From a virus: DNA of 44,348 bases. Where the stretch lies: positions 1 to 44,348 of IMG/VR virus record IMGVR_UViG_3300004772_000008; one strand, given 5' to 3'. The notes beneath the pieces are model-generated. The model was not told where the DNA came from, ran no database searches, and saw nothing but the letters and a program-made list of their open reading frames with translations. Each line of letters begins with the position of its first letter. Position 1 is the stretch's first letter. This document shows, one piece after another, positions 10,073 through 37,647 of the stretch. A program made the position numbers and the translations under genes.

Positions 10073-11029
10073 TTAGCATGTGCTGCAGCCGGTATCGCCC
10101 AGGCGGCTCCCCAGAACAACCAGGGACATCTGCGTCACTTCTGAACTCAGCCGCGTCACAAAGCTCTGCAGAGTTGTTACACCATCGCCAAAGCGATCGA
10201 TCTGCGTTGTAATAGCGTCAAGCTCTGTACACCCGCAGCACGGTTGCGCGCAGGTGTCAGACAAAAACAAACCGCCAGTGACTCGCGCAACATCGACGCA
10301 CTCGCCTTGGTTGATCTGAAAGTTGCCGTCCTTGCTGCATTCGCCGTTGATGCACCGAATACACGTTCCCGTGTCATGCACGTCGCAGAAGCAATCTTCG
10401 TTAAGATTCAGCCCTGAAATGGCGCTGAACGTGATTGTCGGATCTTCGTTCTCTTGAGTGGTCAACCCAAGCCGCATGTTCGTCCCGGCGGTCAAAATGA
10501 CGTCGCCGTAAATCGGCGCGCTCACTTCGCCGCTGTTCGAGATTCGCAGCCGTGTCACGGCCCGGATGTTCGGCACAATGGCGTCTGGCTCGAGCTGGCC
10601 GGCTGCGGGCGAGAAAAAATACCGGCCGGGCGGTAGCGCGTCGATCTCGTCAAGCCGGCCAATCACGATTTGCCCGATGGTGTCGGCAAAATCGTCAATG
10701 CCGCCGAGCGCGTAAGCTCTGTTTGGCGAGTACGTGCTCTTTGCAATATTGGCTGCTGCAATATCTGGGTTGTCTTCTGTATTCGTTTCGCCGGCGTCAT
10801 AGCCGATGGTGATGTTGTAACCGGTCGGCGCCAACAGCAGACTTTTGATGTAGAACTTCTCGGGCGCGATGTTCAGCCCGGCGTTCACGGGCAGTTTCAG
10901 CGCCACGATAAAGCTGTCCGGCAACCGAATCGTGTTCAGCGTGTCTGTTTTGCTAGCGCGCTCAGTCAGCGGATAAGACCGCTGCGAGTTGTGGTTGAGC
11001 CACTGCAGATTCCATAGGCCCAAACTCAT
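10073..11029 (-). CDS. Tail-tip/fibre family protein (RxYP family) with CCxC motif
   Basis: This 318-residue protein carries QRSYPL at residues ~16-21, the clearest copy of the family N-terminal signature, followed by a DTLNTIRLPDSFIVALKL segment that aligns by eye with the 564-residue paralogue (DDILVDCHL). CINGECSKDGNFQI near residue 224 is the family motif. PCCGCTEL near residue 268 precedes a predicted helical tail, and the protein ends DTGCSTC. Its ATG overlaps the TAA of the homing endonuclease gene (TAATG). It is probably a tail-tip component whose C-terminal helices oligomerise; this is inference from the motif layout. Confidence 0.75.
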   Translation of the reverse strand: MSLGLWNLQWLNHNSQRSYPLTERASKTDTLNTIRLPDSFIVALKLPVNAGLNIAPEKFYIKSLLLAPTGYNITIGYDAGETNTEDNPDIAAANIAKSTYSPNRAYALGGIDDFADTIGQIVIGRLDEIDALPPGRYFFSPAAGQLEPDAIVPNIRAVTRLRISNSGEVSAPIYGDVILTAGTNMRLGLTTQENEDPTITFSAISGLNLNEDCFCDVHDTGTCIRCINGECSKDGNFQINQGECVDVARVTGGLFLSDTCAQPCCGCTELDAITTQIDRFGDGVTTLQSFVTRLSSEVTQMSLVVLGSRLGDTGCSTC

Positions 11030-11766
11030 TATCCTGCCCTCCCGGCGCGATATTGAGCTTTACGCCTACGACGATTGCACTCACGACAGTAAGCAGCTAG
11101 GCCGGACGCGGTATGGTTATCTCGATTAAAATCTGCCGCCTGTTTGTAATTGCGGCATTTTGAGCACCACACAAGCGACTGCGCTACCTTCTTAGGCCGT
11201 GGCGCGGGAAGATGCGCTGTCTTTGTCAGCCACTCCTCCCTGGGCGTATTGGCGTGACGGCATTCCCAGCCTTTATGGTGCCGTTGTTTGCCGACAGCAA
11301 TCTTGTTCATTGCTGTGCTTGTTAAGTTGTGCAGCGCGCAGAAACGCGAAAGATTAGTGATCGTCGTTTCTACCCCAACAGGATCGCGCACAATAAAACT
11401 TTTGGCTTTTGCTTTTACTATGGCGGCTCTAGCTTTTTCCGATTGCGGAACACCTAACGTTGATCCCGCCTTCAATGCCAGATTGAAACCATAATGCTTA
11501 TTGGTGGCGCGCAGTGTGTCGATCCAGAACTGCTCTCTTTCCAACAGCGTGCCTTTGTCGCATGGCTCAATTACTGAATACACGAACCCCGCCTCGCCGT
11601 ATTTATTCCAGGCGTGTTGAAGATATGTGTTGTAGTGGCGATTTTTGCGCAACGATGGAAGATGCCTGGCGTACCAGCGGCGATACGTATTTACGCTACT
11701 TCCGACATAGACTTTGCCTGTTGAAGTGCAGGTAATTTTGTAAATACCCGGCGTGTTCGGCACCAT
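11029..11766 (-). CDS. GIY-YIG homing endonuclease, free-standing
   Basis: This 245-residue protein has GIY at residues 7-9 and YVG at 20-22, then Arg29/Arg30 and an EQFWID segment with a candidate metal-binding Glu78, the core order of the GIY-YIG nuclease fold. The middle (~120-170) resembles the DNA-binding modules that follow the catalytic domain in mobile endonucleases. The C-terminus has a zinc-finger-like pair, C201-x2-C204 and C227-x2-C230, followed by a basic tail. Such enzymes nick or cut DNA lacking the element and spread their own gene by repair. It lies between two structural genes with no sign of an interrupted reading frame, so it is intergenic rather than intron-borne, and its stop overlaps the next start. 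Confidence 0.92.
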   Translation of the reverse strand: MVPNTPGIYKITCTSTGKVYVGSSVNTYRRWYARHLPSLRKNRHYNTYLQHAWNKYGEAGFVYSVIEPCDKGTLLEREQFWIDTLRATNKHYGFNLALKAGSTLGVPQSEKARAAIVKAKAKSFIVRDPVGVETTITNLSRFCALHNLTSTAMNKIAVGKQRHHKGWECRHANTPREEWLTKTAHLPAPRPKKVAQSLVWCSKCRNYKQAADFNRDNHTASGLAAYCRECNRRRRKAQYRAGRAG

Positions 11767-11780
11767 AACTGCTCACACGT

Positions 11781-13685
11781 TTAGGGGACAAACACGATAC
11801 CGGTCATGCGTAACAGTCCGACCTCCGCGCCGTAGTTATCGGTGGCTCCGGCGCGACTGAGTGTCAGCAACACTGTATCGCCCTCAGAGACTGAGAAAAC
11901 CGCGCTTTCAACCTCGACTGCGGTGTCGATGTTGATTGATGTTGTCGGCACTGTGAATGTCAGCGCGGCGTCGTTCGCGGGTAACGCCATTCCGCCGCTC
12001 GCGGGCCTCGCCAGCCGGCGGTAACTCATTGTCAGTGTTGGCAGTACTGCGGTAGCCCGACCAAACAGCTGCGCGCGGATTTTCATCTGCAGCGTTGCGC
12101 CCAAATTTGCGCCGGGCACATTTAACCGCACCCGCAGCAGCGATGTCTGCCCGGCTGGGAAACCAAGATATGGAATGTCTTTGTAAAGCCGCTCAACCGT
12201 GTCCGACAGCCGAATGATTTGCGGCGAAATTTCGCGCTCTACAAGCTGATCGTTATATGAAACTGTAACGAGGCCTTGGTACAGCAGCGATGTATCGGTA
12301 CCGGGCAGCCCAAGCGTTGTTTTTTCTGCCGCAGACAGCACGCGGCTTCGGGTGCCTGTAAGCGTCAGCGGTCCCGCGCCAAGGCGCAACCCCTCGGTCA
12401 CCCACCCCTTGCGAAACTTGAAGTCGTTAGTGATCTGTTTGTACGCGCGGCCGCCTGCGATTTCAGTCGGGTCATCGACAATCGTGAGATTCAAGCCAAG
12501 TTGCAGGTCGCCTGTGGTTGCCTCACCGCCGTCACAACTCTGCACAGTGATCGGACTATTTGCCGCAGGACGAAGGCTGGTTACAACACTGCGGTCATTT
12601 CCAAATACCATGCGCAGGAAAACAACGCTAAGGCGCATTGCTTCATTGCGCGGGCATTCAGGAGTAACGCCTTGCGCTGTTTCTGCCGCGCCATCAGACA
12701 AGCCATCTGTGCTTAGCGTCGCCGGCCAGGGCGCGTCGCCGTAGCAATTGCTCATCCACCAGATCCCGTTAGCATCAACAACGCAAAGACCCGTTGTGCC
12801 CAGCGGGATTTCTGTAGCGCCGACTTTGTTTGCGCCCTTGTCCCACAGCAACGCAACGGCTTGCAATGGCAGAGGCGGCCACACGCTAGACAGCTCTGGG
12901 TGCTGTGCCAGGTTGTAACCGAACGCTGCGCCGACGGGTGCCCGCCCATTGAAACTTGCGTGATTTGCCGGCAGCCAGCCTTTACGCAAAACAGTCGGGT
13001 TTGTGATTGCGTGTTGTCCACTCGAGGCCGCTGTGGTCGGATTGTGCGTGCCGGCGGGCCGCGCTACCAGTTCAAACCGGTAGTGCACATGATCTTCAAG
13101 GAAATCGCGTGTCTGCGGCGCCACGATAACCCAGGGCGTATCAGCAGAGCAGGCGTCTTTGGGCCCGAGTACGTGGCATACCGTAACGGTGACAGGCGGC
13201 CGTTGCTTAACGAGTTTGCCAGGCTCAACCGCCGACAGATAATACTTACCGGGCGCAATTGGGCCGGTAATCGCATTTGCAAGATCGTTCGCCAACCCGG
13301 GAGCAGCGGGCGGGAAGCGTACGATGCCTTGCAGCACAATGTCGCCGAGTGTGCTTGATTTTTTGTTGAAACAGAGCCCAACGCAATCTGAAGACGGCGT
13401 TGTAATTAGCGTTTGCGTTGTTGCGTTGTTCTCGACTGCCGCCAGCGCTTTCTCATAACACTGCGTCGTCGCGTTCCAGTACACTGGTTGCCCGGGCAGC
13501 ACGTCAGGCGCAATCGTAGCGCCTGTATCAAACACCGCTCGGCCAAGCTCCGCGGCGTCTAAGCGGTGCTTAAGGTACTCAGTGCGGTCCGCAAGCGTAC
13601 GGTCAGGTCGCGATACAACGCCGGCCTCTACTGGCTCTCCGGCGGCGACGTGCTTGATATTGTTCAGCCAGTTGTTGTTGGACAT
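11781..13685 (-). CDS. Baseplate-proximal tail fibre/structural protein
   Basis: This 634-residue protein has GGAGG six to seven bases before ATG 13685. The N-terminal segment VSRPDRTLADRTEYLKHRL (residues ~24-42) is typical of phage fibre or baseplate-attached proteins in which a short helix follows a TL-x-x-R-T-x-YL motif. The rest is beta-rich with no catalytic signature, and the C-terminal ~150 residues look like a compact beta domain ending in hydrophobic strands (GIVFVP). It lies just downstream of wedge-type proteins and upstream of the fibre paralogues, a usual position for the protein linking baseplate and fibres. The function is inferred from this motif and position. Confidence 0.7.
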   Translation of the reverse strand: MSNNNWLNNIKHVAAGEPVEAGVVSRPDRTLADRTEYLKHRLDAAELGRAVFDTGATIAPDVLPGQPVYWNATTQCYEKALAAVENNATTQTLITTPSSDCVGLCFNKKSSTLGDIVLQGIVRFPPAAPGLANDLANAITGPIAPGKYYLSAVEPGKLVKQRPPVTVTVCHVLGPKDACSADTPWVIVAPQTRDFLEDHVHYRFELVARPAGTHNPTTAASSGQHAITNPTVLRKGWLPANHASFNGRAPVGAAFGYNLAQHPELSSVWPPLPLQAVALLWDKGANKVGATEIPLGTTGLCVVDANGIWWMSNCYGDAPWPATLSTDGLSDGAAETAQGVTPECPRNEAMRLSVVFLRMVFGNDRSVVTSLRPAANSPITVQSCDGGEATTGDLQLGLNLTIVDDPTEIAGGRAYKQITNDFKFRKGWVTEGLRLGAGPLTLTGTRSRVLSAAEKTTLGLPGTDTSLLYQGLVTVSYNDQLVEREISPQIIRLSDTVERLYKDIPYLGFPAGQTSLLRVRLNVPGANLGATLQMKIRAQLFGRATAVLPTLTMSYRRLARPASGGMALPANDAALTFTVPTTSINIDTAVEVESAVFSVSEGDTVLLTLSRAGATDNYGAEVGLLRMTGIVFVP

Positions 13686-34676: not shown

Positions 34677-35957
34677 CTAAAAGTTCCAGAAGTCGTCGGG
34701 CGGGGAAGCGGGGCCGGGAAACTGCTGCTCGGTTTCCACGCCTTCGCTGCGCTCGGTAAGCACGGCCTCGCTGCTGTCTCCCAGGATTTCCGTTTCCCAG
34801 AAGACCGTCAGCTGGCCCGCGGCGACAACCGTGATAAATTGCGTATTCGGGCCGTACTCGCCGGGCTTCTCAAAAAGCACGGCGTAATTGCCAGGATCTA
34901 ATAACAGCGCGTCTGCCCAGCGCCCGTTCGCGCCAGTTGTAGTACTGGCTACAGCGTTAGCTCTGGCTGGGTAGTCTGGTTGCGCGGCATCGTAGATATC
35001 TTTTGGAAACACATACACACGCGCACCCTCGACCGGATAGCCCGTCGCGTCAGCGTACGCTAAATAATCCGGCGCGTTGAAGTTATGGTCTACCGGAACG
35101 ATGCCGCAGCCAATTTGCGGCGGCACGGGCCCGGGACGCGAGGCTGGTTCGCCGCCAATCTCGATAGCGTAAATAGAGCTTGAGAACGGAATCAACCCCA
35201 TTTGAATGTTGTAGACAAGCGGCACGCCACGCATAGCCGCCGCAACCTGAATGCTGTGTACCAACCAGCGCTCGTCGCTGGTGCCGTTTACCCAGATGTC
35301 GTTGCGGTTAATGCTCGGAAACCCAATTACGCGGGCGGTGACTTCGGCGTTCTCGCGGGTTGTGCCCTTAAGCTGACCGTCTTGCTGCTCTGTAATAGTC
35401 TGGGTTGACAAGTCCCAGCATTGCATAGCCAGCGGCGGGTGATAACCAACCTCGAAGCTGGTGCCGTTACAGATCGGGCAATTCGAGTCCAGCACCTCGC
35501 CAGACAGCTCGTCGCGACAGCGCTTGCACGGCCGCCCGAATCGGTAGGGCTTGAGCAAAAACCCCGAAACACTAACGTACTTGTGCCGGAGCTGCTCTTT
35601 CCGGATAACTTCACGCGATAGCACCCAATCGCGCTCAGCCAGCTCCCCGAAACAGCTGACAGCTTGGCTGACATAGATATCTTTGTCGGTTGTCAGCGTA
35701 ACCCGGTAATGCGTTAACAGGTCGCTGGCAGAGTTGCGCCACGCATCGTCATACGCAACGTAGCCGTCAACAATCGGGTTTCCGACGTTATGCCAGTCAG
35801 GAGAATCGCGCAGCCCGGTGTTCCCGAACTGCAGCTGAAAAATGCGCGGGCCGGGGTCGTTAAACGCTGGCTCTAGCTGCCACCAGACCCGCGTAACGCC
35901 GCGGATCATGTTGTCCACAGCGACCTGACGAAACGGAAATAAACGCGGTTGCGACAT
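34677..35957 (-). CDS. Neck protein with Cys4 zinc-binding motif and Ig-like domain
   Basis: The 426-residue protein starts at ATG 35957, which has no Shine-Dalgarno but lies six bases after a TATAAT. Residues 144-163 carry C144-x2-C147 and C160-x2-C163 (PCKRC and CPICNGT), a zinc-ribbon-like knuckle. Residues ~290-390 (GYPVEGARVYVFPKDIYDA, then GANGRWADALLLDPGNYAVLF) match the transthyretin/Cna-B-type Ig-like fold found as surface add-ons on many virion proteins. The position after the adaptor and before the tail genes points to a neck role. It follows the non-coding RNA block. Confidence 0.7.
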   Translation of the reverse strand: MSQPRLFPFRQVAVDNMIRGVTRVWWQLEPAFNDPGPRIFQLQFGNTGLRDSPDWHNVGNPIVDGYVAYDDAWRNSASDLLTHYRVTLTTDKDIYVSQAVSCFGELAERDWVLSREVIRKEQLRHKYVSVSGFLLKPYRFGRPCKRCRDELSGEVLDSNCPICNGTSFEVGYHPPLAMQCWDLSTQTITEQQDGQLKGTTRENAEVTARVIGFPSINRNDIWVNGTSDERWLVHSIQVAAAMRGVPLVYNIQMGLIPFSSSIYAIEIGGEPASRPGPVPPQIGCGIVPVDHNFNAPDYLAYADATGYPVEGARVYVFPKDIYDAAQPDYPARANAVASTTTGANGRWADALLLDPGNYAVLFEKPGEYGPNTQFITVVAAGQLTVFWETEILGDSSEAVLTERSEGVETEQQFPGPASPPDDFWNF

Positions 35958-35963
35958 GTTTTG

Positions 35964-35969
35964 ATTATA
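35964..35969 (-). promoter_or_regulatory. Consensus -10 element, probable leaderless promoter
   Basis: A perfect TATAAT on the minus strand stands six bases (CAAAAC) before ATG 35957, so a transcript would start at or next to the A of the start codon. No clear -35 is visible 16-19 bases upstream. The gene has no Shine-Dalgarno, unlike most neighbours. Confidence 0.55.
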
Positions 35970-35982
35970 GCTGCAGAGCGCT

Positions 35983-35990
35983 GATAGCTA
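35983..35990. repeat. 8-bp direct repeat, left copy
   Basis: GATAGCTA here is repeated at 36581-36588. The two copies bracket the structured non-coding block exactly, outside its terminator. TAGCTA is itself palindromic, so a chance match or a protein site is possible. Confidence 0.5.
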
Positions 35991-36025
35991 AGAAAAAGAC
36001 GCAACGAGCAGTCAGAGACTGCTCG
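35991..36025 (-). terminator. Intrinsic terminator ending the non-coding RNA
   Basis: On the minus strand a nine-base perfect stem CGAGCAGTC/GACTGCTCG (arms 36017-36025 and 36005-36013) with loop TCT is followed within a few bases by a T5 run (35993-35997). It shows that the block is transcribed on the minus strand. Confidence 0.8.
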
Positions 36026-36580
36026 CTCTCGGCGCGCGTCCGCCGCAGAATGTCGTACTACAGGGCCGCCCGCCGGGGCGACGGTCTCGTATTGACTCAA
36101 ACCCAATCTGGTGGGTTCCAACCTGCCGCAGACCTTGGCATGAGGTTGGCTCACGTGTTTGTTGGCACACGCTGAAGCCTGGACTGCGATGTTGCCGCCA
36201 CGGTCGGGCGCTCCCCGACGCGTCCGTCGGATTGGGTTTGCGACGTGCTAGCGTTTCGCAAAACCACAACTTTCTGCCGAGGGGTACGCCCCAAGGCGAG
36301 GCTGTCGCAACAACCTCCGGTGTGCGGGTGGCAGAGCACTGTATCCCACAGTGTTGACTTCGCTGCAGTCTTGCTGCAGCTGGCTTGGACCCTTTTTGGC
36401 TTCGACGCACTGACCAAGCAGAAGTGCGTAGGTTCCGCGACGACCTCTCGGTCGCCGGTACTTCACCGGGCGCCGGAACAGCGCTTTCGGGAAGGCCGAT
36501 TTATCGGCGTCAGCAGCGACTCGGGTGCTGCCGCAGCAGCGTCGATGGCGGCGGAGTCGTTGCTATCGCCAGCCATCCAA

Positions 36581-36588
36581 GATAGCTA
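36581..36588. repeat. 8-bp direct repeat, right copy
   Basis: This is the second copy of GATAGCTA (see 35983-35990), at the 5' side of the non-coding RNA in transcript orientation. On this side it also overlaps a potential small GATAG/CTATC hairpin. Confidence 0.5.
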
Positions 36589-36627
36589 TTACCCTATCAA
36601 TCTATATGCCCGGTTTTTGCCCAATAT

Positions 36628-37647
36628 TTAGTACCGGAGCCGGAGGCCGCTGGCGTAGGCGCTGTACTTGTAATTGCTCGTTACTTCGCCGTAGCAACCC
36701 TCAAGATTCAGGCTAGCTTTGGTAGCGCGCACCCACTCGCGGTACGCCTGCCAGCGCATTTGCCCGGCCTGCTCGTACATGGGCGCCTTGTTCTGGTCGT
36801 TGATCTGCATGCCCGCGGCGGCATACTGAAAATCATTCCGGCGGTACTGCTCGGCCACCATGAAGAACAGGTTGGCCACAATTCCTTCCAGCCAGTGATA
36901 GCGGAACGGAAAGTTTTGCGTGTTGTAGACGGCGTCAATCGGCGGCGGGATCTCGTTCCAGTACATAACCGGCCGCGCGATCGCCAGCGCAATCTCGGCG
37001 TCATCAAACATGAGGTTATCGAGCAGGTAGCTTTCGCCGGGACTTGAGTCGCGCAAATGCAGCCGGATTTCTGCGATGCTGGGCGGCCCACCGTTTTCAT
37101 TGTCTGGACCGAACAGGCTGCGCGTTATGACCAGCGAGAACGTGTTAGAGAACACGACGCACGGCAGGTCTTGGCTTTCTGCGACTGTGCTAACCAGCGC
37201 CATCTCAGCGTAGTAAATACCTGGCAACTTCGTCATCTCGGCGGTCAACTCCGCCTCAACGCGCCCTTCAGCCGCGTTTACGACCGCGGCCTCGACTTCA
37301 AATGGCGGGCGTGCATTGCCCCACGACAGTTGCTCTTTCAACCGAAGCACGACGCGATAGTCGATTACCGTAGACGAGCTTTCTAAGTCTTCTGGAAAGC
37401 CGCACGCTTGCAGACTTACTGGGCGCCCCTCTTTGTCGTGCAGTTGCCAGGCGACTGTCGCGCACTGGCCCTGGTTCACAGCAATAGACCGCATACGCCC
37501 AAGAACAGGCGCGCCGTTTACTGTGCTGACCGAAGCGCTGAGAATGTTCTGCCCAGCGCACGACACCGGAAAAAGACCGCCGACGGTTGTAATCGGCGCG
37601 GGTGTCGGGATTACGGGCTGAGAAGCTGGCGTAGCAATCACAACCAT
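36628..37647 (-). CDS. Head-tail adaptor/connector protein
   Basis: The 339-residue protein starts at ATG 37647 with GAGGTGA five bases upstream. The N-terminal ~180 residues are beta-rich with an Ig-like look (ATVAWQLHDKEGRPVSL, LPGIYYAEMALV). The C-terminal half is helical and reads like head completion proteins: IAEIRLHLRDSSPGESYLLD, a segment DDAEIALAIARPVMYWNEIP, then NFPFRYHWLEGIVANLFFMV and QYRRNDFQYAAAGMQI. Such proteins sit below the portal. Gene order (capsid genes before, neck genes after) agrees. The fusion of an Ig-like domain to an adaptor is a little unusual. Confidence 0.75.
   Translation of the reverse strand: MVVIATPASQPVIPTPAPITTVGGLFPVSCAGQNILSASVSTVNGAPVLGRMRSIAVNQGQCATVAWQLHDKEGRPVSLQACGFPEDLESSSTVIDYRVVLRLKEQLSWGNARPPFEVEAAVVNAAEGRVEAELTAEMTKLPGIYYAEMALVSTVAESQDLPCVVFSNTFSLVITRSLFGPDNENGGPPSIAEIRLHLRDSSPGESYLLDNLMFDDAEIALAIARPVMYWNEIPPPIDAVYNTQNFPFRYHWLEGIVANLFFMVAEQYRRNDFQYAAAGMQINDQNKAPMYEQAGQMRWQAYREWVRATKASLNLEGCYGEVTSNYKYSAYASGLRLRY

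Follow-up and report, generated by a model that had tools for sequence, protein, structure and literature searches.

Among its virion genes, a large freshwater phage carries a cassette that probably encodes a structured RNA of a new family

What occupies several hundred bases between two genes of an otherwise closely packed phage operon? This question is raised by a stretch of 44,348 nucleotides (nt) of viral DNA (IMG/VR record IMGVR_UViG_3300004772_000008; the whole stretch is called the window below), in which the virion operon and all other genes lie on the minus strand. A 670-nt gap separates the gene for a 339-amino-acid (aa) protein (36628-37647, minus strand) from that for a 426-aa protein (34677-35957, minus strand), and spacing elsewhere among the neighbours is far tighter, as an initial annotation of the sequence had pointed out. 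That annotation proposed that the gap holds a large structured non-coding RNA within a virion operon. Our analysis supports this, with the strand corrected to minus, and finds the block to be independently bounded by signals of its own. That the block is a functional structured RNA is very probable. The explanation that we favor, with a probability of about 0.72, is a self-contained moron cassette within the virion operon whose product is a folded non-coding RNA that acts in trans and represents a new family. A phage moron is a cargo gene equipped with a promoter and a terminator of its own, and it typically codes for a protein.

The block carries its own start and end signals

The following features delimit the block:

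35958-36627, minus strand: variable cargo slot, the whole intergenic gap, from a slot census of 55 related loci
36604-36631, minus strand: promoter-like START motif, CTAAATA-N14-GGCATAT, with the same 28-nt layout upstream of the relatives' cassettes
35992-36597, minus strand: putative structured RNA of ~605 nt, both ends predicted, from the fold z-score, the lack of a coding signal, and the bounding motif and terminator
35993-36026, minus strand: intrinsic-terminator-like hairpin of 10 bp followed by a T5 run, from sequence, with a pairing probability of 0.98-1.0
35964-35991, minus strand: cassette END motif, TTAGCTATCAGCGC then GCTATAAT, promoter-like for the downstream 426-aa gene

The START motif occurs once in the whole window, at the upstream edge of the block, where 0.0002 copies would be expected by chance. 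Cassettes of relatives open with CTAAAWA-N14-GGCATAT, at a constant 28 nt, and close with TTAGCTATCAGCGC behind a hairpin and a T-run; the END motif recurs after terminators at many sites in related genomes. We call the START motif promoter-like solely from this recurrence. The terminal stem and T5 run described in the initial annotation are present at 36026-35993. From the START motif and the terminator and END signals together, we infer an RNA running from ~36597 to 35992, close to the interval originally proposed.

To see what relatives carry at this position, we compiled a census of viral contigs encoding the 339-aa protein (30, then 55 contigs). Many of their slots are empty (2-61 nt), and others contain small-protein cassettes; several distinct contigs encode there a small protein together with an AAA_5 ATPase and a DxSxS protein, plus a separate structured RNA. 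Among the 55 loci, only the window has a delimited slot that spans several hundred bases yet contains no coding gene. With its own promoter-like motif and terminator, and missing from the same site in relatives, the block is, as read from these sequences, a self-contained cassette of the moron type.

Predicted fold and conserved modules

Folding gave a z-score of -4.3 for the minus strand and -2.9 for the plus strand, compared with +1.4 to -2.9 for 11 coding controls (dinucleotide shuffles, 50 each). The elements of the minus strand discussed here are:

36046-36155, minus strand: module A, including a local hairpin at 36117-36100, from homology to the contigs L112/L144
36327-36391, minus strand: module B, made up of hairpin H1, linker GAAGUCAA, hairpin H2 and CUCUGC, common to three phage contigs
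36380-36374 with 36368-36362, minus strand: module B hairpin H1, loop CAAGA
36353-36349 with 36341-36337, minus strand: module B hairpin H2
36438-36455, minus strand: GAGA-capped hairpin, outside the region covered by homologues
36098-36240, minus strand: proposed 11-bp long-range helix, 36230-36240 with 36098-36108, an exact complement

Module B is found in the window's phage, in L112/L144 and in a third contig, L154. All 12 of its pairs are kept in all three, none being broken, and 7 of the 12 have changed on both sides, in an alignment of three sequences uncorrected for relatedness. None of 500 shuffles did as well, and sliding the pairing partners abolishes the signal. No letter differs in the loop CAAGA or in the linkers GAAGUCAA and CUCUGC, such that the variable letters are the paired ones and the fixed letters the unpaired ones. 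L144 and L154 each contain one G-U pair in module B, which favors the minus strand as the RNA. A covariance model recovered the members at 83-88 bits. Because they were found partly through a motif search, the identity of the L154 loop and linkers is not independent evidence; the pairing of the L154 hairpins is. For the window genes tested, L154 showed no related protein, and its module B sits in a ~1.5 kb region without good open reading frames (ORFs).

Module A matches L112/L144, which has the same slot and the same upstream gene as the window and holds both modules, with 81% identity over 111 columns (two sequences; E 1e-22), including a run of 31 identical bases.

Two structural elements had been singled out earlier. 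The GAGA-capped hairpin (36455-36438) is present in the minimum free energy fold. The 11-bp helix is an exact complement as stated, but a stem as long also arose in 3 of 60 shuffles, and its pairing probability is ~0.11. A local hairpin at 36117-36100 (AACCCA-CCAGAU-UGGGUU) competes with it at a probability of 0.7-0.9 and is kept in the homologue, while the partner strand of the long helix is absent from L144. We regard this helix as marginal and not conserved. Covariation, also proposed as a check, is seen in module B and in parts of the homologous cassettes described below, but not for the long-range helix.

Searches of the block by blastn gave chance matches only among phages and plasmids; among 31 related phage records, only the cassette-end/promoter motif stood out besides the same phage. 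In exact-pattern scans the real matches were L144, L154 and the same phage, the others lacking the hairpins and lying mostly in coding-like sequence, and a GTDB scan with the module A pattern returned two chance matches. Across 46 phage records, the module B model found, beyond its three known members, only matches of 10-26 bits, none of which was established. The best of these, in L181, lies inside a 909-aa ORF and was rejected; L184 looks related to L181.

We also note that L154 contains a 2.65-kb ORF-poor stretch (L154:8152-10802, minus strand), of which ~1.5 kb resembles a very large structured RNA, with a possible tRNA ~2 kb away.

The same modules are arranged in one cassette or in two

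The modules are ordered B-A in the window and A-B in L112. There, the cassette is one ~1.1 kb unit that runs from START to END signal and comprises a leader hairpin, a basic 51-aa ORF, a structured domain, A and B. The 5' half of this unit has a counterpart elsewhere in the window's phage, on a 107-kb contig (G001) that represents the same phage (99.99% identity over 42 kb):

G001:95290-94850, minus strand of G001, and L046:14850-15290: second cassette, C2, with leader hairpin, basic 44-aa ORF and structured domain, from homology to the 5' half of L144

C2 is 61 kb from the block and matches the L144 5' half at E 6e-21 and 2e-12. In structures predicted from these same two sequences, the leader has 4 pairs changed on both sides and 2 broken, and the domain 15 changed on both sides and 4 broken. 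Among 46 records, C2 was found in the window's phage and L112 only, other matches being to the promoter motif alone. As far as these sequences can be read, one set of modules is a single cassette in L112's phage and two rearranged cassettes in the window's phage.

Two observations were made alongside. At about 12060-12110 (plus strand) L144 has a perfect T-arm-like hairpin, GUGGG-UUCAACU-CCCAC, with GCCGCC on one side and GGCGG on the other; despite this, no tRNA or transfer-messenger RNA (tmRNA) was detected in L144. The window's phage has a further START-motif cassette (G001:95957-95300, minus strand) that encodes a 155-aa protein resembling a membrane protein.

Coding potential

Could the block encode a protein? 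Under a codon model whose training set was the genes of the window itself, whole reading frames in the gap scored -36 to +0.3 bits, compared with +45 to +60 for neighbouring genes and mostly about +14 to +70 for the protein genes that relatives carry in this slot. A simple gene finder called one antisense piece in the gap at a lax cut-off and none at a stricter one. The three single-base gaps in the alignment of module A with its L112/L144 homologue argue against a protein frame in that module. The RNA of the block is therefore probably non-protein-coding, and the ~600 non-coding bases of the initial annotation are borne out. One short frame deserves comment:

36463-36576, minus strand: 37-aa ORF near the RNA 5' end, ambiguous codon score

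It scores -0.2 (controls: in-frame 5% point, +2.2; out-of-frame 95% point, -4.1). A dual-function transcript that also encodes this 37-aa peptide would be compatible with our preferred explanation. C2 and L144 encode related basic ORFs with ribosome-binding sites (C2, MAYRRGRCRL..RPITNP..RRQ; L144, MYMASRRRCRL..RPITNP..RRQ), and L154 has a 45-aa ORF, likewise with a ribosome-binding site, ahead of its module B region. The window ORF, however, has no clear Shine-Dalgarno sequence and no homologue, and we consider a coding role for it rather unlikely.

Function in trans or in cis, and other explanations

We next asked whether the block could be a cis-acting leader, like a riboswitch or attenuator, for the 426-aa gene. 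Like such a leader, it immediately precedes that gene and has a terminator-like hairpin at its end. However, a promoter-like element comes after the terminator; relatives with a slot of 2-61 nt keep the 426-aa gene with no leader; and the L144 unit precedes an AAA gene instead, while C2 lies elsewhere in the genome. A leader is accordingly unlikely. Because the terminator and a new promoter-like element precede the next gene, and because relatives do without the block, its product would more naturally act in trans.

Alternatively, the block could be a DNA element, such as a replication origin, a packaging site or a recombination element. Its inverted repeats, AT/GC-rich edges and variable slot would suit this. 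The compensatory changes, fixed loops and G-U pairs of module B nevertheless fit RNA, a promoter-like motif and a terminator bound the block, and most relatives lack it, leaving such an element improbable.

We give equally little weight to the idea that the block is decaying, as the residue of an L144-like RNA or of cargo genes that have been lost. It has only part of the L144 content, reordered, as a remnant might; yet no damage is seen in its promoter-like motif, its terminator or any module B pair, and module A retains its 31 identical bases running.

The weakest alternative, a diverged ROOL or GOLLD (multimeric cage RNAs), agrees in size, phage origin and intricate predicted fold, but is very improbable, since Rfam models gave no hit with E<=5 to the block, L144 or L154.

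Two known element types were also rejected as candidates. Neither ARAGORN nor Rfam matched a tRNA or tmRNA in the window or L144, and a self-splicing intron was set aside on the finding that both flanking proteins can be aligned over their entire length with those of relatives whose slot is nearly empty.

If the block is indeed a cassette for a trans-acting RNA, the RNA would be transcribed from it during infection, perhaps late, as its position alone suggests, and the product would act as RNA, in trans. It might then form a ribonucleoprotein (RNP) or an RNA assembly, probably with the C2 RNA and the C2 basic peptide, with a role in virion building or some other accessory function. Such an assembly is suggested by the virion-gene neighbourhood, by the AAA-ATPase cassettes, a type for which a part in virion assembly has been proposed (PMC7824862), and by the basic peptide that goes with the C2 half; we see it as possible, at clearly less than even odds. 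Slightly more doubtful is the specific version in which one ~1.1 kb transcript in one phage corresponds to two rearranged transcripts, from loci 61 kb apart, in another, which would meet in trans with the basic peptide as an RNP.

Several findings pull against the favored explanation. Expression of the block is so far a prediction from its promoter-like motif and terminator. Homologues are few, three sequences for module B and two for module A, and about 430 of the 605 nt have none. The change in module order means that the overall architecture is not conserved, and A and B could therefore be independent elements. Finally, no homologue of the AAA gene or of the DxSxS protein gene ('gene 3') was found in the available 107 kb of the window's phage.

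Genomic context and a different RNA in the same slot

The host of the cassette is a large, uncultured, freshwater myovirus-like phage. Its operon is of the contractile-tail type (a weak Phage_sheath match and Baseplate_J). Its closest annotated phages are distant ones (Salmonella phage Arash and Vibrio phages, 27-30% identity). The two flanking proteins (339 and 426 aa), for which the initial annotation had proposed adaptor and neck roles, gave no clear family match. Amid the tail genes, an ORF at 11029-11766 (minus strand; GIYKITCTSTGKVYVG) resembles GIY-YIG endonucleases, differs from its neighbours in codon use, and is likely a homing endonuclease. A related 197-kb phage contig, G031, has a tmRNA at 101987-102335 (tag GAYAPALAA) and several tRNAs.

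The RNA of the AAA-ATPase cassettes ('RNA-1') is a different structured RNA of about 520-660 nt, lying 3' of the genes for the AAA_5 ATPase and the DxSxS protein. Its sites are:

L078:5936-6475
L016:8292-8895
L079:5934-6572
L085:5955-6474
L083:5981-6639
L081:5949-6542
L116, about 10280-10860

This RNA belongs to no Rfam family, and two of its elements covary. A strong ribosome-binding site stands at its start, along with a tiny ORF that reads MPFP (four cases, with synonymous changes), MTWP, MHWPR or MFT before the stop. Aligning it with the window's block gave nothing convincing, and homology was not demonstrated. A bulged motif in the window (36255-36235, minus strand: UUUGCGA-AA-CG-loop-CG-UCGCAAA) recurs strand-swapped and invariant in this RNA (GGACGUCG..CGAAACGCC); the likeness, GCGA-AA-CG / CG-UCGC, may reflect a shared module or chance. 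For the DxSxS protein, examined for a VWA fold, the AlphaFold2 model was weak and Foldseek gave no significant match, so 'VWA-like' rests on the DxSxS motif and the AAA neighbour. A search for known defence families returned weak AAA-domain matches only.

Comparison with known systems

Like morons, the block is present or absent between conserved genes and has its own promoter-like motif and terminator; unlike typical morons, which encode proteins, it appears to encode an RNA. In relatives, the same cargo position can be taken by an AAA-ATPase cassette that bears yet another structured RNA.

Among RNAs, we file the block as a putative new family within the large structured RNAs of phages, with its permuted and divided layout as a new trait. 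The initial annotation had allowed for either a known class or a new one. Using Rfam at the gathering score and at E<=5 with permissive filters, we found no match to ROOL or GOLLD (conserved 3' region) in window positions 35850-36750, L144 or L154, nor to OLE, HEARO or raiA in the block or its homologues, which leaves the new-class branch.

ROOL and GOLLD form multimeric cages (PMC12286853). ROOL is likewise a phage or prophage RNA, some 600 nt long and intricately folded, whose purpose is not known, but it is a one-piece, octameric cage (PMC12286853), whereas the block's modules, known here from sequence, are permuted and divided and match no model. GOLLD, first known from lake samples, is also a large phage RNA with a conserved and a variable part, but it is longer (many over 800 nt) and often lies beside tRNAs (PMC12286853). 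As first reported, no tRNA adjoins the block, and none occurs in the window, although the same phage has five at 98-100 kb of G001, 3-5 kb from C2 and 61+ kb from the block. As the purpose of ROOL/GOLLD-like cages is not known, a sequence-unrelated family would add new handles, namely a candidate peptide partner and defined modules to mutate, and with the divided layout nature would supply a test of a large RNA's ability to function in pieces.

Permuted RNAs are known in other classes, such as permuted tmRNA and permuted hammerhead ribozymes (PMC10085705). As in permuted and two-piece RNAs, both the order of the modules and the number of pieces that carry them vary here; no sequence relation to those RNAs was found, and the joining of block and C2 in trans is hypothetical. 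Lastly, a virion-assembly role has been proposed for the MoxR AAA / vWA pair of jumbo phages (PMC7824862), which the AAA_5 ATPase and DxSxS protein in the relatives' slot resemble. The passage on that pair makes no mention of RNA, and the block has no such genes beside it; in the relatives, the AAA_5 and DxSxS genes lie in the very slot that in the window is occupied by the candidate RNA.
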